This document shows, in pieces, positions 7,494-28,956 of a stretch of DNA of 29,108 nt (position 1 is its first letter; every line of letters begins with the position of its first letter). This DNA is from a virus. The position numbers and the translations under genes are program-made. The stretch is from positions 1-29,108 of the IMG/VR virus record IMGVR_UViG_3300022591_000050; one strand, 5' to 3'. The notes below the pieces were generated by a model. The model was given only the letters and a program-made list of their open reading frames with translations. It was not told where the DNA came from and did not search any database.

Positions 7494-7749
7494 TGTACCC
7501 AAACTGATACGAGAGTATTTGGACGGGTTTCACGGGCATTATAAAATTCCACGTCATTGTCCAGAAGAAGAAGATGTAAAGGAATGGCTCAAACAAACCG
7601 GAGCCCAATTTAGATATTGGATCTATTACAAAGGGCATGTTAGTGACAGCTACGGTGTAGTCAATATCAAAGATCCCAAGTGGTGTACACTATTTGAGCT
7701 ACGTTGGGCACATTTGGTTATCGGCACAGTTGACAGACCTAGATCGTGA
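7471..7749 (+). CDS. Small protein of the F-x-L-R-W family
   Basis: A protein of 92 residues from a GTG start that overlaps the previous gene; a TTG at 7456 is the alternative. It has V-K-E-W-L-K-Q-T-G-A-Q-F-R-Y-W and then C-T-L-F-E-L-R-W, the signature repeated by several proteins at 10446-12975. Here the signature is followed by 13 extra residues. The role is unknown. Confidence 0.65.
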   Translation: MSQSPEPNVPKLIREYLDGFHGHYKIPRHCPEEEDVKEWLKQTGAQFRYWIYYKGHVSDSYGVVNIKDPKWCTLFELRWAHLVIGTVDRPRS

Positions 7750-7758
7750 GTGTAAACT
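7730..7758 (+). promoter_or_regulatory. Possible internal promoter, TTGACA-N17-TAAACT
   Basis: A perfect -35 at 7730 and a weaker -10 at 7753 with a 17-bp spacer, inside the end of 7471-7749 and ahead of the 7784 gene. Confidence 0.45.
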
Positions 7759-7783
7759 GTTAACTAAACAACTTCTGGAATCT

Positions 7784-7951
7784 ATGATGAACTTTAGACA
7801 TTGGCTGTCGGAAATGTGGCTCAACCACAAAGACGAGTATATCGATATTGGACAAGCGGTTCCAGAAGCTGACCTCGCCCAATACTTTCAGAAATACAAG
7901 TATTGGCTCAAACGTGAATATAGACATCAACAAGGATCTAACAATGGATAA
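7784..7951 (+). CDS. Small basic phage protein, function unknown
   Basis: A protein of 55 residues starting M-M-N-F-R-H-W-L-S-E-M-W. It is rich in Trp, Tyr and Lys, with Y-F-Q-K-Y-K-Y-W-L-K-R-E-Y. The type recurs among T4-like aquatic phages. The ATG pair at 7784/7787 is preferred over far-upstream rare starts. Its end overlaps the start of the next gene. Confidence 0.6.
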   Translation: MMNFRHWLSEMWLNHKDEYIDIGQAVPEADLAQYFQKYKYWLKREYRHQQGSNNG

Positions 7952-8120
7952 GTTTATCAACTGGTATCGCGATTACTACACTGAGATTACATGGTTTGTA
8001 ATCGGCATTTTGTTTATCAACTTTTTGGAAGATATGGCTCGAGAAAACTTCTCAGGAGCTCTGCTCAATGCAGTCTTAATTGCTGTAAACTATATGTTCT
8101 GGAAGCAGGATAATGTTTGA
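7944..8120 (+). CDS. Small two-helix membrane protein
   Basis: A protein of 58 residues. M-D-K-F-I-N-W-Y-R-D-Y is followed by a hydrophobic helix (W-F-V-I-G-I-L-F-I-N-F-L) and a second one (A-L-L-N-A-V-L-I-A-V-N-Y-M-F-W). AGGA lies 8 nt before ATG 7944; the longer open frame from 7848 lacks a site. It precedes and overlaps another membrane-protein gene. Confidence 0.7.
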   Translation: MDKFINWYRDYYTEITWFVIGILFINFLEDMARENFSGALLNAVLIAVNYMFWKQDNV

Positions 8121-8481
8121 TAGTATCTACATATTACTAGCCGCACTATTTGTCAAACACTGGTACATTGACTTTGTTAACCAAAGCTCAGAGGAAGTAG
8201 CAGGCAAAGGCATTTACGGCAATGCATACGGATTGATGCATTCAATCAAACACGGTGTTGCCACCTTCCTGATCATGTGGTACTTTCTAGCTAATTGGCC
8301 TTTGGCTGTTATTGTTGGCTTCATTGACTTTGTCTTACACTATCATATTGATTGGGCTAAGATGAACATCAACAAGCGTTGGGGTTATACTGTAGAACAG
8401 CCTGCTTTCTGGGCTTGGCTAGGTGCTGATCAATTGGCACACTCATTAACATATCTTGCATTGGTTTGGTTAGTTGTATGA
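8113..8481 (+). CDS. DUF3307-type membrane protein
   Basis: A protein of 122 residues with several hydrophobic helices and the spaced charged residues typical of DUF3307 proteins: K-H-W-Y-I-D-F near the N-terminus, L-M-H-S-I-K-H in the middle, L-H-Y-H-I-D-W-A-K later and D-Q-L-A-H near the end. The family is common in phages and bacteria, with unknown chemistry; the conserved H/D/K set suggests a membrane enzyme. It overlaps both neighbours (ATGA type). Confidence 0.75.
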   Translation: MFDSIYILLAALFVKHWYIDFVNQSSEEVAGKGIYGNAYGLMHSIKHGVATFLIMWYFLANWPLAVIVGFIDFVLHYHIDWAKMNINKRWGYTVEQPAFWAWLGADQLAHSLTYLALVWLVV

Positions 8482-11950: not shown

Positions 11951-12177
11951 CTAAAGAGCAACGTAACCAATACTGGGGAGCTCTACATGCTGTCCGTAGC
12001 GAATACAGAGAAGCGGTAGGTGATAATATAGGTGTAACAGGTCCTACATTGCCACACTGGGTAGAAGAGAAATATGGCTTGCGTATGGGATTAGACGGGC
12101 AAGGTAACTACACACAACAGTATTATGTAGTTGATCCAAAAAGATTTATGCTCTTTCAAATTAAATATTATAAATGA
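11947..12177 (+). CDS. Small protein related to the L-R-W run
   Basis: A protein of 76 residues starting M-T-K-E-Q-R-N-Q-Y-W. It ends Y-Y-V-V-D-P-K-R-F-M-L-F-Q-I-K-Y-Y-K, which aligns with the family ending as F-x-I-K-Y in place of F-x-L-R-W. A helix with L-P-H-W-V-E-E-K-Y-G-L lies before it. I treat it as a divergent member. ATGA overlaps on both sides. Confidence 0.7.
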   Translation: MTKEQRNQYWGALHAVRSEYREAVGDNIGVTGPTLPHWVEEKYGLRMGLDGQGNYTQQYYVVDPKRFMLFQIKYYK

Positions 12178-15707: not shown

Positions 15708-17918
15708 ATGATTAATCTTTACGCATACAGTTACCCGGCCGCAATTAAAAAGTTTTCAGACGACGGCTATACATTGCTCAAATTAGGCGATAGTCATCGT
15801 GACATCGAAGTTCGAATTAACGAGCAAGGTAACTCTGCTGAGTGGGAAGAAAAGATTATTATCGGGTCTTGGAATAACTTACAAAAGATTAAACGTGATC
15901 ACGATGTTCATGAAGTATTAACTAAGCGTGGCTTATGGCACTCGGGTAAGCACAAAGGTACTGAGTGGTTTAAAATTCCAGGTAATAGTGTCGAAGAAGC
16001 CTACATATATTTGGATGCGTTGATCGCAGAGTTTGAAGGTAAACGTATCCGTAAGTCAGTTAAACTTCGATCACTACAACAAAAAGCTCTAAACAAAGCA
16101 ATGTCATATATCGACAACGGCGGTTTTGATGTTAGTATTATTGCTAACCTTTGTCCACGTTTTGGTAAAACATTGTGGGCATTATCATTGTTTAATGCAA
16201 TACACCAAAAGTACGGTAACCGAATTATGTTGTTGCCAGCCTATTGGCTTAGTGTACATAGCTCATTTGTAAGTGAGTTAACCGAATATGACGACTTCCT
16301 AGATATTGTTCAAATTGATGTATCTGCTGACGATGCTCGTGAACGTGCTATTGATGCTATCAGTGCCGGCCAGCGTATTCTAATCCCAATGAGTTTGCAC
16401 GGTGACTTAGAAGAATGGAAAACTAAACATGCCTGGATTGCATCCATTCCAAATGCAGATGGCTTCTCGTTTGCAGATGAAGGCGACTTTGGAACACATA
16501 CAGAAAACCAAGTAGCTAAACTAGACTACATTTTTAAAACACAGTCTGATCCTGTACAAGGTCGTAAATTTGTTCGAGTTTATGCTAGTGGTACTAACGT
16601 ACAACGCCTTGCTCGTTGCTCCCCAGATATTAACGGTGTTATCTATACCGCCTACAGCGAGTTAGAACAAACTGAGCCTGGCATTATTCGCCGTAAGTTT
16701 TTCTGTACACAAGTAGACTCTCTTAAACAAGAAGTAGAAGCACTGGATGAAAAGATTCAGCCTAGCTGGATTAAGATTTGGGACCGTCCGCTATCTAATA
16801 AAGCATTTGTTGGTAAATTGCTACAGGCACTGACAGGTGAGGATTCATTGCGCCCAGAAATTAATCTAAGCGAAATGACTGGAGAAACTATTGATTGTTT
16901 CATGTTGTTGGTTAGTGCTAACAATAAAGAAATGAAACAAATTTATGAAATTGCTGAACGTGAAATTCCAGAATGGCATGTAAAGGTACTCAACGGTGAG
17001 TTTACCAGCAATCGCAACGCTGAGTTTGAAACTAAACGTGAAATCAACGAGGCCCGCATTGCAGGTAAGAAAGGTGTAGTAATTATCGCTAATCAAATGG
17101 GTTCACGTAGTTATAGTATTCCTGAGATCCAAGCTACTGTTATTGCATATGATCGCGGTAGTGTTGATGCTACAGTTCAAAAGGTTAGCCGTTGCCTGAC
17201 ACCGGGCAATACTTATAGTGGAGAAGTTAAGACACACGGGTATATTGTAGATTTGAGTTTTGATCCTAACCGTGCTGAGAATATTGAACGTTTGATTTTA
17301 GAAGAAGCTATCCAAGTACAGCGCAGTGACGATATTGATTTTACTAGTGCTGTTCGATATGTGTTAACTAGTATTGACTTGTTTAAAATAAACGAGTTTG
17401 GTTATGCTGAGGAAATAACAGAAGAAGATATGTTTAGGATCCTTGGCGATAATGAAAACTTGTTGCGTGTCGCAGATGTTGCTGTAGATGTAGTAGCGGC
17501 AGTCCAGTCTGGATTATTTGATATTCTTGCAAATGTAAACGCATCAGGTAAGCTCAGTAACTCTAAAAAAGAAGTTGTTGGTGCTGATGTAATCAATGCA
17601 GTTACTAAAGGTGGTAGCTTAGATAATAATACACTTACGGATAAAGATAAAAAGAATATTGAAAAGATTATCAACGATGCTATTCGATCATTAAACATGA
17701 GTGCGACTAGCGTATATGATCTAGCCAATGATGGGCATAGTTATCGAGAGTGTTTAAAAGTAATTGATTCAAACTCAGATTTAAACAATGAATTCCAATC
17801 GCTGTTTGGTATCAGCGCAGGTGATGCAATTACCTTAGTTGATAATCGTGCGTTGAATGAAGCTATATTAGACGTTATCGTCCAAAATAGTAAAACGATT
17901 GACAACATCTTTGCTTGA
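15708..17918 (+). CDS. T5orf172/GIY-YIG nuclease fused to SF2 helicase
   Basis: A protein of 736 residues. Residues 1-105 follow the T5orf172 branch of GIY-YIG nucleases: L-Y-A-Y (4-7), L-K-L-G-D-S (24-29), R-D-I-E-V-R (31-36), D-V-H-E (66-69) and G-T-E-W-F (84-88). Residues about 120-500 carry helicase motifs: R-F-G-K-T (151-155), D-E-G-D (257-260), A-S-G-T (293-296) and Q-K-V-S-R (491-495). The last 200 residues are unassigned. Nuclease plus translocase is the layout of a restriction subunit, and an adenine methyltransferase follows. It could alternatively be a recombination or repair helicase. Confidence 0.85.
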   Translation: MINLYAYSYPAAIKKFSDDGYTLLKLGDSHRDIEVRINEQGNSAEWEEKIIIGSWNNLQKIKRDHDVHEVLTKRGLWHSGKHKGTEWFKIPGNSVEEAYIYLDALIAEFEGKRIRKSVKLRSLQQKALNKAMSYIDNGGFDVSIIANLCPRFGKTLWALSLFNAIHQKYGNRIMLLPAYWLSVHSSFVSELTEYDDFLDIVQIDVSADDARERAIDAISAGQRILIPMSLHGDLEEWKTKHAWIASIPNADGFSFADEGDFGTHTENQVAKLDYIFKTQSDPVQGRKFVRVYASGTNVQRLARCSPDINGVIYTAYSELEQTEPGIIRRKFFCTQVDSLKQEVEALDEKIQPSWIKIWDRPLSNKAFVGKLLQALTGEDSLRPEINLSEMTGETIDCFMLLVSANNKEMKQIYEIAEREIPEWHVKVLNGEFTSNRNAEFETKREINEARIAGKKGVVIIANQMGSRSYSIPEIQATVIAYDRGSVDATVQKVSRCLTPGNTYSGEVKTHGYIVDLSFDPNRAENIERLILEEAIQVQRSDDIDFTSAVRYVLTSIDLFKINEFGYAEEITEEDMFRILGDNENLLRVADVAVDVVAAVQSGLFDILANVNASGKLSNSKKEVVGADVINAVTKGGSLDNNTLTDKDKKNIEKIINDAIRSLNMSATSVYDLANDGHSYRECLKVIDSNSDLNNEFQSLFGISAGDAITLVDNRALNEAILDVIVQNSKTIDNIFA

Positions 17919-17927
17919 TGTTATAAT
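17899..17927 (+). promoter_or_regulatory. Perfect sigma70 promoter for the methyltransferase
   Basis: TTGACA (17899-17904), 17 bp, TATAAT (17922-17927). It lies in the last codons of the helicase gene and lets the methyltransferase be transcribed separately. Confidence 0.9.
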
Positions 17928-17956
17928 AATTATATTACAGTAAATCGGAGAACGTG

Positions 17957-19186
17957 TTGTCAAACGCAATGAAATTTGTTACGGACTTATCCAAAGGCAT
18001 CTTAGGTGTTTCGGATAACGAGTCTATGTGGGCAGATATTGTTGCTCATATTCCAGATAATATACTGTTAGATCCTACTAAACTCATTTTAAATATTTGT
18101 TGTGGCCATGGTACTGAAGCTGATGTAATTGTTAAAAAGATGAGTGCATTGGGCGTTAGCGATGTTGAGATACAGCGTCGATTATATTTGTTAGACAAGT
18201 ACAATGTCTTTACAAACAGGGCCAAGCGAAAAGGTTACACTAATGTAATCACTGCTGATTTAGTAGAATGGACTCCGCCTGTAAAATTTGATGTAGTAAT
18301 AGGAAATCCCCCATACCAAGATGCTGACGACTCGGGCGGTGCATTGTGGGCAACCATTGTGACTAAAGTATTTGATGAGCTAGTTAACGATGGCGGGTAT
18401 GTTGCTATGATACATCCTCCTACCTTTATTGGTAAACATCTTGCATCGGGCCGTGGCAAAAGTGATTACACTTGTTTTGCTAAGAATCAAATTCATTACT
18501 TACATTTGTTTGACACTCTTGAAAAAAACAAATACTTCCCTGGAGTAGGTACTCGAGTCTGTTGGTATGTTGCATCTAAACAAACCCCGACAGCACCAAC
18601 TACCATTGTAGGATACGATCAAGATACTACATTTGAATTTGATGTAGACTTTAAAACAACTCAAACTTTACCAACTGTAATTAATAAGTTGTCTATGAGC
18701 ATACATAATAAACTGCTTGCTAGTCAAAGTTTAAATTTTAAACAGCGTCGCGAACTGCATTATCATACTATGAAAATAAGAAACTTAGTTAGTGATAATG
18801 AAACTAAAACTCATTTGTATAAAAGTTATTTTAGTCACAAAATTATTAGGTATGCTAGTTTTCAATTTAGCGACTACAAAGCAATCAAACTTATGGTTCC
18901 GCAAACATCTACAATTGACAAGTCGTTTGTAGAAGCAAACTGTAATGTCAGTGAAGACTTATTTTATATTATTTGTAAAACACAAAAAGAAGCGGTTGCT
19001 CTACAGCAATTTTTAAAATCAGATCTTGTAAAATATATTGGTAAACTTTATCGTCCTGGTAGAAACTTAGGTGCCCTATTAGGTGCAGGTATTATTCCAG
19101 AACCTACAGTAACTATCAAATGGACACAAGAAGAAATTGATTATATAAATTCTATTGCCAATCCAAGCCTCATAAATACCCAGTGA
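17957..19186 (+). CDS. N6-adenine DNA methyltransferase
   Basis: A protein of about 409 residues. The SAM-binding motif is N-I-C-C-G-H-G-T-E (46-54), and the catalytic motif N-P-P-Y (117-120) is preceded by F-D-V-V-I-G, as in gamma-type N6-adenine methylases (Eco57I/TaqI-like). Y-F-P-G-V-G-T-R-V-C-W-Y-V-A and the C-terminal G-R-N-L-G-A-L-L-G are consistent with a target-recognition region. A TTG at 17957 has the best distance from CGGAG; GTG 17954 and ATG 17969 are alternatives. It could protect phage DNA or partner the nuclease-helicase. Confidence 0.88.
   Translation: MSNAMKFVTDLSKGILGVSDNESMWADIVAHIPDNILLDPTKLILNICCGHGTEADVIVKKMSALGVSDVEIQRRLYLLDKYNVFTNRAKRKGYTNVITADLVEWTPPVKFDVVIGNPPYQDADDSGGALWATIVTKVFDELVNDGGYVAMIHPPTFIGKHLASGRGKSDYTCFAKNQIHYLHLFDTLEKNKYFPGVGTRVCWYVASKQTPTAPTTIVGYDQDTTFEFDVDFKTTQTLPTVINKLSMSIHNKLLASQSLNFKQRRELHYHTMKIRNLVSDNETKTHLYKSYFSHKIIRYASFQFSDYKAIKLMVPQTSTIDKSFVEANCNVSEDLFYIICKTQKEAVALQQFLKSDLVKYIGKLYRPGRNLGALLGAGIIPEPTVTIKWTQEEIDYINSIANPSLINTQ
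19171..19178 (+). promoter_or_regulatory. Late promoter, CATAAATA
   Basis: One base from TATAAATA, inside the end of the methyltransferase gene and 15 nt before the epimerase ATG. Confidence 0.55.
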
Positions 19187-20019: not shown

Positions 20020-20027
20020 AATAAATA
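20020..20027 (+). promoter_or_regulatory. Late promoter, AATAAATA
   Basis: The octamer ends 7 nt before the ATG at 20035, so the transcript would be leaderless or nearly so. Confidence 0.6.
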
Positions 20028-20034
20028 CTTAACT

Positions 20035-20307
20035 ATGAGATTACATGAATTTGAAGAACAATTTTGCAAAGATTGTGGCGGCAGTTTAGCCGAACACGGC
20101 AAAGCTAGTCGCGCATTATGTTTAAGTCGCAAGCCAGACGATGATTTAGGTGCAAGTATGCTTGCATCATGCAAGTCTCAAGGACTACGTGCCCGCGATG
20201 GCGAGAAAAGCCATAAGCTAGGCAAAACAAAAAAGAGTCGCATTAAAGTAGGCGGACATAAGATTAAGGGCAACAAATACGGCGGCCCATTACCGGATTG
20301 GAGTTAA
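20035..20307 (+). CDS. Virion-type small basic Cys protein
   Basis: A protein of 90 residues starting M-R-L-H-E-F-E-E. It has C-K-D-C-G-G, a later C-L-S-R-K-P-D-D-D-L-G-A-S-M-L-A-S-C-K-S-Q-G and a basic C-terminus ending K-Y-G-G-P-L-P-D-W-S. That ending and the G-A-S-M-L-A-S-C-K-S block recur in T4-like aquatic phages. The N-terminus resembles a capsid-targeting peptide, so packaging in the virion is plausible. It is followed one base later by the tail-lysozyme gene. Confidence 0.8.
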   Translation: MRLHEFEEQFCKDCGGSLAEHGKASRALCLSRKPDDDLGASMLASCKSQGLRARDGEKSHKLGKTKKSRIKVGGHKIKGNKYGGPLPDWS

Positions 20308-20995: not shown

Positions 20996-21001
20996 TAAAT
21001 A
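20994..21001 (+). promoter_or_regulatory. Late promoter, AATAAATA
   Basis: The octamer ends 5 nt before the YqgE-gene ATG, exactly the T4 late +1, and overlaps the TAA stop of the lysozyme gene. Confidence 0.65.
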
Positions 21002-21006
21002 TCTGC

Positions 21007-21555
21007 ATGAACTTAATAGGCAATTTATTAATCGCTCCACCAGCGGTCAAAGGTAACTTCTGGCATAAAACAGTTATCATGGTCACCGAACATCACACTC
21101 AAGGTAGTGTAGGCATTGTAATAAACAAACGCAGTGAGATGAGTATTAAAGAGTTTGGTGAACAGCTAGGCTTTGATTTAGATATTCCAGGCTTTGTATA
21201 CTTAGGTGGCCCTATAAATGTTAAGAGTTTAAGTTTCTTACACAGCAATGACTGGGGTTGTAAGAACACAATGCGTATCAATGAGAACTTTAGTTTAAGC
21301 TCTGCAGATGATATATTACCTAGGCTAGCAATGGGCGATCATCCAGAACATTGGAGATTGTTTTTAGGTATGGCAGGTTGGGCGCAAGGACAACTGGCTA
21401 ATGAAATGAAAGGGACTCCTCCATTTTCACATACTAACAGTTGGCTAACAAGTACAGCCGATATTGATCTAGTTTTTGGCAATGATAACAAAGAACAATG
21501 GTGCAATGCTATTGATCGTTCAGGCCAAGAGTTTGCTCAAAACATGTTGGCATAA
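21007..21555 (+). CDS. yqgE: YqgE/AlgH-family (UPF0301) protein
   Basis: A protein of 182 residues of full family length. G-N-L-L-I-A-P-P (5-12), F-W-H-K-T-V-I-M-V-T-E-H, G-S-V-G-I-V-I-N-K, V-Y-L-G-G-P-I and L-G-M-A-G-W-A-Q-G-Q-L-A-N-E-M follow the YqgE pattern throughout. The bacterial protein has no settled biochemical role, and its link to gene regulation is unproven. The start codon coincides with the predicted late +1, so the mRNA is predicted to be leaderless. Probably captured from a bacterial host. Confidence 0.92.
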   Translation: MNLIGNLLIAPPAVKGNFWHKTVIMVTEHHTQGSVGIVINKRSEMSIKEFGEQLGFDLDIPGFVYLGGPINVKSLSFLHSNDWGCKNTMRINENFSLSSADDILPRLAMGDHPEHWRLFLGMAGWAQGQLANEMKGTPPFSHTNSWLTSTADIDLVFGNDNKEQWCNAIDRSGQEFAQNMLA

Positions 21556-21622: not shown

Positions 21623-22141
21623 GTGTCAGCTACTCTACTGCTAAACGCAGACGGCATGCCCGTTTCATACATGCCGCTATCAACCCTTACTTGGGAAGAT
21701 GCTATCAAATATATGGTTTTGGACAAAGCGGATGTCCTGGCTTATCACGACAATTGGATAGTCCATTCAGCTAACTGGGAAACAGCCGTTCCCTCAGTTA
21801 TGATGCTTCGCGAGTACATGAAACCTAAAATGTCAGTTCGCTTTTCAAGAGCGAATGTATACCTACGCGACGATAGCACTTGCCAATACTGTGGTGATCA
21901 TGTTGAAGCTAGGCATGCTACCCTTGACCATGTGTTACCTGTGTCTAAAGGCGGCAAAACCACTTGGGAAAACACCTGCACAGCATGTGGCCCATGCAAC
22001 TCTGGTAAAGCTGATAAAACTAAAGGCTGGAAACCTAAAACCAAACCTTACAAGCCAGACTACTACGACTTAGTAAATAAGCGTAAGAAGCTAGGCTTCG
22101 ATAACGTAAGGTTTAAAGAATGGTTACAATACATAGTTTAA
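21623..22141 (+). CDS. HNH endonuclease
   Basis: A protein of 172 residues from a GTG start with AGAGG upstream. Residues 1-60 (L-L-L-N-A-D-G-M-P-V-S-Y-M-P-L) match the N-terminal domain of a widespread bacterial HNH family. The nuclease part has C87-Q-Y-C90, L-D-H103-V-L-P, N117 and C122-G-P-C125-N-S-G, giving both the zinc knuckles and the catalytic His/Asn. It may process phage or host DNA. It overlaps the next gene by 22 bp. Confidence 0.9.
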   Translation: MSATLLLNADGMPVSYMPLSTLTWEDAIKYMVLDKADVLAYHDNWIVHSANWETAVPSVMMLREYMKPKMSVRFSRANVYLRDDSTCQYCGDHVEARHATLDHVLPVSKGGKTTWENTCTACGPCNSGKADKTKGWKPKTKPYKPDYYDLVNKRKKLGFDNVRFKEWLQYIV

Positions 22142-22557
22142 AGAAAGTACTTTGGAAGTTATTAGGGTTTGCTAGTTTAGGCATGGCTTATGTTGGCCTT
22201 GTTACACCTGGCATTCCTTATAGTTGTTTTGTAGTCTTTGCCGCCTATTGTTTTGCTAAAGGGTCGCCAAAGATGCATGCCTGGTTATACAATCATAAGA
22301 TATTTGGGCCGTTCCTAACCAATTGGAATGAGAAACGTGTATTCCCACATAAGATGAAGTTCTTCATGCTAGCCATGATGAGCTCCAGCTTGATCATTAT
22401 GTTCTTTACAGGTGTTAAACCAATAGGCATATTAAGCACAGCTATATTCATGGCGTGTGTAGCAACTTGGGCATGGCGCTTTCCAGGAAGTGTAGAGGAG
22501 TACGACAAGCGCATTGCTGAGGGCAGGAAAATAGGCTGGTTCAACAATTCATTTTAA
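22120..22557 (+). CDS. DUF454 (YbaN-like) inner-membrane protein
   Basis: A protein of 145 residues. G-M-A-Y-V-G-L-V-T-P-G-I-P-Y-S-C-F-V-V-F-A-A-Y-C-F-A-K-G-S-P-K and the following H-K-I-F-G-P-F-L-T-N-W follow the DUF454 pattern, with further hydrophobic helices near residues 82-100 and 104-122. Bacterial homologues are small inner-membrane proteins of unknown function. Its TAA overlaps the late octamer at 22557. Confidence 0.85.
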   Translation: MVTIHSLKKVLWKLLGFASLGMAYVGLVTPGIPYSCFVVFAAYCFAKGSPKMHAWLYNHKIFGPFLTNWNEKRVFPHKMKFFMLAMMSSSLIIMFFTGVKPIGILSTAIFMACVATWAWRFPGSVEEYDKRIAEGRKIGWFNNSF

Positions 22558-27155: not shown

Positions 27156-27392
27156 ATGAGTCAGGTACTAACAGAAATAATGAGCAGTGGTCATCCATGG
27201 TTTGCTGAACGTGCTCAGTATGCATTACAAGTAGGGCAAGCTGTACAGAATGGTGAGATGAGTGCTGATGAAGCTAGAGAAATACTTGCTGATTTGATTA
27301 GTACTGAGAAACTACAAGAAGCAGCCGCTGACCAACAGGCAGTTGCCGCTCTTGTGTTTGGTGTTACTCAACTTGCTGGAATGCTAGCTTAA
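27156..27392 (+). CDS. Small helical phage protein
   Basis: A protein of 78 residues. Two or three helices are visible, with [26 protein letters not shown] in the centre and an Ala/Val-rich end ([15 protein letters not shown]). I recognise the G-E-M-S-x-D-E-A pattern from T4-like phages; function unknown. It follows the adhesin by 10 bp, and its end overlaps the opposite-strand 5-aminolevulinate synthase gene by 29 bp. Confidence 0.8.
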
Positions 27393-28566
27393 GAGCTTCT
27401 ACTAGGTCTTCAATCATTCCATCATCGTGGAATGGACTTGGAGCAAAACGTAATCGTTCTGTTCCTACATCAACTGTAGGATAGTTAATTGGCTGGACAT
27501 AAATTCCATGTTCAGCTAATAGGTAATCACTCATCTTCTTACACTTCTTAGCATCGCCCACTAGCACAGGTACAATATGTTCTGTGGCACAATCCATAAC
27601 TGTGATACCAGCTTTGCCTAAACGATGCTTTAACTTACGAGCACGTTCTTGATGCTTTTCACGTACTTCATTGTGCTCACGTAGATACTTAACAGCGGCC
27701 ATAGCACCTGCACAACTAACCGGACTCATTGATGTTGTAAAGATAAATCCAGCTGCCACTGAACGGATACAATCTACTATATCTGCATCGGCAGCAATAT
27801 AGCCACCTTGGACTCCAAACGCTTTGCCAAGTGTTCCATTGACTATGTCTACTTGATCTTGTAAGCCTAATTCTTCTAGTTTGCCGGCACCTTCAGCACC
27901 GTAAAGCCCTACCGCATGTACTTCATCAATATATGTGATTGCTTTATACTTCTTAGCCAGCTTGCATATCTCTGCAATAGGGCTAACGTCTCCGTCCATT
28001 GAGTAAACGCTTTCAAATACTACACAAGGAGTCTTTCCACGAGCAAAACTAACTTTGAGTTTCTGTTCTAGATCTTCTAAGTTGTTGTGTTCAAAGACAA
28101 CTTTATCCGCACGGCTATGATTAATGCCTACAATAATTGAGTTGTGATTTTTGCTATCGCTAATAAATTCAATATTAGGAATGATCTTAGCTAGAGCAAT
28201 TAATGTCCATTCATTAGCTACATAAGCAGAGCTGAACAGCAATGCTCGCTCTTTCTTGTGTAAACTAGCAAGTTCCCATTCAAGAGCTTTATGATAGTGA
28301 CTAGACCCGCCAATATTACGTGTACCGCCCGAACCAGACCCTGTATGATCCAGGGCTGTGTGCATAGCATCTAGCACAACTTTGTGCTGGCCCATGCCAA
28401 GGTAATCGTTCGAACACCAGTTAACTATGTTCTTAATGTTATACGGTCCGTACCAAATAGCTGTAGGAAATTTGCCTGCTTCGCGCACAATGTCGTTAAA
28501 CACGCGGTATTTTCCGTTATCTTTTAGCTCTTGTAGTAGTTTTTTGAAGGGTTCTTTGTTTATCAT
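27364..28566 (-). CDS. hemA: 5-aminolevulinate synthase (C4 pathway)
   Basis: A protein of 400 residues. It condenses glycine with succinyl-CoA to 5-aminolevulinate, the first step of haem and tetrapyrrole synthesis in alphaproteobacteria, using [22 protein letters not shown]214-E-V-H217, G-T-L-G-K248 (PLP lysine), F-I-F-T-T-S-M-S-P and [10 protein letters not shown]-x-x-G-T-E-R-L-R are all present; the last block distinguishes it from KBL, BioF and SPT. The start at 28566 sits 8 nt after a late-type TAAATA; an upstream frame to 28605 is rejected. It appears intact and functional. Confidence 0.93.
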
Positions 28567-28574
28567 AGTGCAAG

Positions 28575-28589
28575 TATTTACGCTAAATA
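28575..28589. promoter_or_regulatory. Back-to-back late promoters (TATTTA-CGC-TAAATA)
   Basis: TAAATA elements point left (28580-28575) and right (28584-28589), separated by 3 bp. Leftward, the octamer CGTAAATA serves the 5-aminolevulinate synthase gene; rightward, GCTAAATA serves 28609. Each matches the late consensus at 6 of 8 bases. Confidence 0.55.
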
Positions 28590-28608
28590 CACACAGAGGA
28601 TTCAAATA

Positions 28609-28956
28609 ATGGCCGCCAACGGAATATCAACACTATCTACAAAACAAGCAAAACAAAAGGCAAAACTTGATTTAGCCAAGCTCAAGCGTCAGGGCTATAC
28701 ACTTGACGCGGCTGGAAACATTGTCAGCGGCCCAGATACAACTAAAGCATTTTATCGTGCTCGCAATGATTACGATCTTACAGAATTACCAACGCAATAC
28801 AACGGCAATGGAATAACTGATAATCCTAATGTAGGCGGACTCGTAATAGGTCGTCCTTGGATTGTTCCAGTGGTTGTATTAGCAGGGAATATTATAATGG
28901 AAACCGGTGATGATTTACTGTTAGAAACCGGTGATCAAATTTATACAGAAGCATAA
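28609..28956 (+). CDS. Fibre-type structural protein
   Basis: A protein of 115 residues. A helical, basic start ([19 protein letters not shown]) carries T-L-D-A-A-G-N-I-V, then a beta-rich end with [21 protein letters not shown], a near-repeat of M-E-T-G-D / L-E-T-G-D as seen in phage fibre and appendage proteins. AGAGGA lies upstream. A small tail or baseplate appendage component is inferred. Confidence 0.75.

Follow-up and report, generated by a model that had tools for sequence, protein, structure and literature searches.

A 5-aminolevulinate synthase gene of T4-like phages with a conserved paired late promoter and a predicted near-leaderless messenger

An intact 5-aminolevulinate synthase (ALAS) gene, valaS, was found in the window, which is an entire 29-kb IMG/VR record (29,108 nucleotides) and a fragment of a phage genome. 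Sequence comparison makes it likely that this intact phage gene is read from a paired late promoter as a near-leaderless mRNA, with the resulting ALA sustaining the tetrapyrrole supply. The viral 5-ALA synthase valaS was reported in 2024 in aquatic T4-like phages, either standalone or with hemO and pcyA/X (Wegner et al., PMC11480375), and ALA formation and complementation were demonstrated for the enzyme of phage CB_2 (PMC11480375), which is different from the valaS of the window. An earlier note on this DNA did not know an ALAS gene as a standard part of T4-like genomes; phage alaS had already been described and biochemically tested (PMC11480375). What goes beyond Wegner et al. is the conserved paired late promoter, the predicted near-leaderless start, the association of valaS with DUF454 and the finding of a further copy in a louse symbiont. 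Neither a promoter nor an mRNA leader gave a match in the searchable text of PMC11480375. The features of the window are shown in Table 1.

Table 1. Features of the valaS region and of the DUF454 gene in the window
Feature	Position	Strand	Remarks
valaS, 5-aminolevulinate synthase (ALAS)	27364..28566	minus	400 aa, ATG at 28566, complete to stop
TAAATA late element of valaS	28575..28580	minus	ends 8 nt from ATG
TAAATA late element of divergent gene	28584..28589	plus	19 nt from own ATG (28609)
Back-to-back late promoter TATTTA-CGC-TAAATA	28575..28589	both	specific to valaS start
Shine-Dalgarno-like AGAGGA of divergent gene	28596..28601	plus	none at valaS
Convergent gene, 78 aa	27156..27392	plus	3' end overlaps valaS 3' end by 29 bp
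Divergent late gene, 115 aa	28609..28956	plus	long-protein family beside valaS in relatives
DUF454 (YbaN-type) membrane protein	22120..22557	plus	PF04304, 99.6 bits

Phage context of valaS

Homologues of 44 of the 60 non-overlapping window ORFs were found in the nearest relative, G001 (147 kb), with nearly all of the gene order kept. The G001 genome contained T4-type major capsid, tail sheath, large terminase, gp32-like and UvsY-like proteins, and its capsid shared 69-72% identity with the capsids of jumbo T4-like phages (Phosso, Vibrio 2.275.O, GAP32 and their kin). A scan of viral contigs, a search that the earlier note had proposed, revealed 74 related viral loci carrying valaS at 74-92% identity. 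In most of these loci valaS was a single gene inverted within an opposite-strand operon, with its 3' end overlapping or nearly touching a convergent gene and its 5' end approximately 40-45 nt from a divergent gene of variable identity. The family of the 78-aa convergent gene was found at the same position in 15 loci. The divergent gene at 28609-28956, described earlier as a virion-type gene, is probably virion-associated; that description is plausible for a member of a long-protein family adjoining valaS, and the PHROG search produced no match for it.

PHROGs contained no family for valaS, and no isolated phage with a close ALAS was found; the 19 matches obtained were all below 60% identity, and several of them were glycine C-acetyltransferase (KBL) or BioF genes in records resembling bacterial DNA. 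Such KBL/BioF genes were present in OR845451, OR850917, MG065691 and some other phage entries, which may hold host DNA contamination. The valaS of the window comes from a metagenomic contig, and it could in principle be bacterial DNA misassembled onto phage DNA, or a decaying copy. This is hardly conceivable, since the same gene with the same promoter occurred in 74 viral loci, the window was co-linear with G001, and the dN/dS of valaS was below 0.1. The viral relatives, the synteny with G001 and the conserved inverted placement of valaS show that the window is not a chimera, which settles the worry raised in the earlier note in favour of phage DNA. One stretch of the window (15708-19186), holding a 736-aa ORF with no family match and a DNA methyltransferase, was missing from the otherwise co-linear G001; the two genes form an inserted pair, perhaps one of restriction-modification.

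Identity and conservation of the valaS protein

The valaS protein scored 569 bits against TIGR01821 (ALAS equivalog, EC 2.3.1.37), which is 230 bits above the curated equivalog cut-off of 338.55 bits. Models for KBL, BioF, serine palmitoyltransferase and the autoinducer synthase CqsA each remained below their own cut-offs on the same protein. The nearest solved structures were the ALAS entries 7x98 and 2bwn, both full-length homologues. With Rhodobacter capsulatus ALAS (PDB 2bwn) the valaS protein had in common the family, a full-length alignment and the active-site residues: the PLP lysine and 15 further active-site columns agreed, one of them as T for S, and the identical positions were R21, N54, T83, N85, I86, S137, H142, E185, S189, D214, V216, H217, T245, K248 and R374. 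The active-site columns were invariant over 75 viral sequences, cut contigs excepted. The haem-feedback axial pair His342/Cys400 of R. capsulatus ALAS was absent, with Lys in place of His342 and a shorter Cys400 region having no C-terminal Cys.

ALAS, KBL, BioF and serine palmitoyltransferase belong to one fold family, and the models of the last three match valaS with lower scores. It is nevertheless very improbable that valaS is one of these related alpha-oxoamine synthases and not ALAS, because their models fall under the curated cut-offs while the ALAS model lies 230 bits over its own, and because the tree puts valaS beside SAR11 ALAS. Function as an ALAS is nearly certain from the profile, residue and tree comparisons. 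The earlier description of an intact ALAS with its specific blocks and PLP lysine, distinct from KBL and BioF, was borne out by the TIGR01821 score, the active-site columns, the profile cut-offs and the phylogeny.

The dN/dS of valaS was 0.06-0.09 against the measurable close relatives, with dS of approximately 1 or more; the gene is under strong purifying selection. Judged from the alignments, the ATG call is sound: the N-terminus MINKEPFK was conserved, and an in-frame stop lay shortly upstream in many relatives. Of the interval 27364-28589 first assigned to the gene, the boundary at 27364 stood, and the ORF was found to reach as far as its ATG at 28566, the remainder up to 28589 including the promoter region.

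Paired late promoter at the valaS start

The paired element TATTTA-N1-6-TAAATA occurred a single time in the window, where 0.05 matches were expected. The viral loci, the 147-kb and 280-kb relatives included, had one copy apiece, at valaS, and the element is near-exclusive to valaS in these phages, occurring almost nowhere else. A TAAATA ending 5-8 nt before the valaS ATG, with TATTTA behind it, was present in 43 of 46 distinct 40-nt upstream regions, and 3 distinct contexts were without the element. A Shine-Dalgarno (SD)-like string was seen at valaS in 2 of the 46 regions, and the base 5 or 6 nt past the TAAATA was an A in nearly all contexts. The divergent partner mostly had its ATG 18-20 nt from its own TAAATA, with an SD in 36 of 40 contexts. 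The spacing of 8 nt at valaS and the back-to-back arrangement with the neighbour, both noticed earlier, proved exact (28580..28575 on the minus strand, with the plus-strand copy serving the gene at 28609).

The TAAATA corresponds to the last 6 bases of the 8-bp T4 late box, at the -10 place, and is a TATA-box variant of the kind found in T4 late promoters (gp55/gp33/gp45; PMC2988020), whose box covers positions -13 to -6, as derived from the notation 'A(-13)' (PMC2988020). A box in this position would put +1 on the A of AUG at a spacing of 5, or on the first A of ACUAUG at a spacing of 7-8. The valaS leaders are predicted to be 0-3 nt long across the relatives, and the valaS mRNA of the window is predicted to start as 5'-ACUAUG at 28569, with a leader of 3 nt. 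No sigma-70 site near valaS was better than chance, and a search for a terminator at the gene gave none. The late sigma factor gp55 was found in the 280-kb relative G035, beside gp46/47 (small profile, E 4e-43). The profile gave no convincing match in G001, gp55 was not found in the window, which is only 29 kb, and BLAST with the gp55 proteins of GAP32, HTVC008M and S-PM2 produced no match in the relatives. The late divergent promoter put forward in the earlier note was upheld as T4-type, with the element kept in relatives and gp55 encoded by G035.

The TAAATA might instead be an RNA operator or a part of the partner's promoter, with the valaS mRNA beginning upstream, inside the divergent gene; the 5' ends given here are predictions from sequence, and the 3 distinct contexts lacking the element would fit this. 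It is unlikely, as the element holds a fixed distance both to the valaS ATG and to an A at nucleotide 5-6, the region upstream on the valaS strand has no sigma-70 site better than chance, and many late genes unrelated to valaS show these spacing classes as well. A late promoter lying on the valaS start codon is the preferred reading. In L057 (215-775), and also in L040, a SegE-type GIY-YIG/NUMOD3 gene occupied precisely the place between valaS and its paired promoter; it takes the predicted leaderless start, and its stop overlaps the valaS ATG.

Predicted leaderless late genes beyond valaS

The spacing from TAAATA to ATG was surveyed over 2226 distinct ATG contexts from 75 loci. The distance was 4-8 nt in 137 contexts, 9-15 nt in 8 and 16-28 nt in 119, and SD-like strings were found in 4 of 131 contexts of the near class against 76 of 117 of the far (leadered) class. 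The near class comprised approximately 38 families, including the terminase in G001 and G035. Elsewhere in the window, TAAATA elements lay 5-7 nt from ATGs without SD at 20996-21009, 20022-20037 and 12162-12176; the genes concerned, an AlgH-type gene (21007), ORF 20035 and ORF 12174, have a near-leaderless layout like that of valaS.

No TAAATA 4-8 nt from an ATG was found in T4, GAP32, Vibrio 2.275.O, phiM12 or S-PM2 (approximately 50 kb each), while the valaS phages have many, without SD. One near-ATG element each was found in P-SSM2 and Phosso (approximately 50 kb sampled). The whole genome of the pelagiphage HTVC008M (L206, L208, L209) contained 15 TAAATA elements 4-8 nt from ATGs, with an SD at 1 of the 15; their spacing was mostly 5, whereas the near class of the valaS phages showed 4, 5, 7 and 8. 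No ALAS gene was noticed in the HTVC008M annotation. We lean towards placing valaS in a late-gene class of these T4-like phages and HTVC008M, in which gp55-type promoters would lie on the start codon and support a second, SD-free programme of leaderless translation beside the leadered one, the bidirectional promoter yielding one product of each kind. No description of leaderless late mRNAs in T4-like phages was found in the open-access literature, and the paired start-codon promoter with a near-leaderless messenger has, as far as found, not been described before.

Phylogeny of valaS and the host question

Two ALAS trees, of 86 and 69 proteins, were generated. The valaS of the window was sister to L002 (100/97) and belonged to a phage ALAS clade of 38 rows (100/96). 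Contigs binned as Neomarinimicrobiota and Flavobacteriales, and a sponge Rhodobacteraceae bin, were the first to join this clade, followed by two Pelagibacteraceae MAGs (100/99) and then by other alphaproteobacteria. The phage valaS is sister to SAR11 ALAS and comes from a SAR11-like lineage. The Neomarinimicrobiota- and Flavobacteriales-binned contigs look like mis-binned phage because they carry TAAATA at valaS. The sponge-bin ALAS copies had no TAAATA at their starts; this one sponge-water Rhodobacteraceae bin held three different ALAS genes (L090 705, L094 5001 and L145 5001), each followed by DUF454.

Reading the host from the tree was not accepted: SAR11-like ancestry dates the origin of the gene and not the host of the phage, and the GC content of the window (41%) was well above that of HTVC008M (33%). 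The hint of host identity in the earlier note is weak, since the ancestry is SAR11-like, yet the published valaS phages include some assigned to alphaproteobacterial hosts and others assigned to gammaproteobacterial ones (PMC11480375).

A phage-type ALAS in a louse symbiont

The louse Polyplax serrata has a symbiont, Neisseriaceae bacterium PsAf (PMC9376444), whose ALAS also fell within the phage clade. The PsAf gene (L088 5001-6188) was 70% identical, lay between bacterial genes and had an SD. A phage-only grouping excluding it was rejected (p-AU 0.018, to be read with caution on account of a long branch). No other ALAS of this kind was found among 83 genomes of the family. In PsAf, HemA and HemL gave no match above the cut-off and HemB was present; HemA was present in 9 of 11 other genomes tested, and genome G115 was missing all three first-step genes. 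A phage-type ALAS has apparently replaced the C5 route in PsAf, pointing to a metabolic gene of phage origin that now serves the cell itself as the first step of haem synthesis.

DUF454 beside valaS

In 11 loci a DUF454 gene lay no more than 50 nt from valaS, and in one more the distance was 365 nt; the two genes were on the same strand in basal contigs and convergent in others. The gene context makes DUF454 a possible functional partner of valaS in tetrapyrrole handling. The literature on DUF454 and haem yielded only an up-regulation under iron starvation in Avibacterium. The copies beside valaS include those in L089 (6191-6631) and L091 (6182-6610). L089, a 335-kb contig binned as Neomarinimicrobiota, is probably a marine phage, and it also contained an alternative oxidase (7656-8249; PF01786, E 2e-76) 1.5 kb from valaS.

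Proposed role in infection

Late in infection, a gp55-type RNA polymerase would start from both arms of the paired element. Transcripts running into the virion operon would have a normal leader, and those running into valaS would start at the AUG or 3 nt before it, giving a leaderless or near-leaderless mRNA read without an SD. The extra ALA would sustain the supply of a tetrapyrrole, most simply haem, while host genes are shut off. The ALAS route would need one gene and spare glutamyl-tRNA. We infer, as the earlier note did, that the phage boosts haem or another tetrapyrrole late in infection.

The ALA could serve a product other than host haem, namely B12, bilins made by a haem oxygenase and a bilin reductase of the phage, or a glycine/succinyl-CoA sink. 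Among 48 valaS records, 11 had a haem oxygenase gene and 10 a bilin reductase gene, and the three-gene cassette has been published (PMC11480375). This is possible and less probable than a supply of haem: both bilin genes were missing from most valaS records, including the 147-kb G001, and from the window, itself a fragment. In the records compared, haem oxygenase and bilin reductase lay tens of kb from valaS. A 'putative ferrochelatase' of HTVC008M was considered as a link to haem and rejected, its translated ORF being oxygenase-like and matching such ORFs in G001.

The catalytic residues of the valaS proteins of Wegner et al. are intact and the haem-inhibition residues often missing, as in the window; the loss was claimed to favour the phage (PMC11480375). 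Most alphaproteobacterial ALAS likewise do not have these residues (PMC6154995). The loss need not be a phage adaptation, since bacterial relatives are without them too, and that interpretation is weakened.

The gene bears out and extends the recent finding that phages carry the first step of tetrapyrrole synthesis, and its promoter control is the part worth following. If the reading is true, a conserved promoter placed at the start codon implies leaderless late mRNAs throughout a large, uncultivated phage group, and HTVC008M with SAR11 HTCC1062 is a cultured phage-host pair that would share this prediction.
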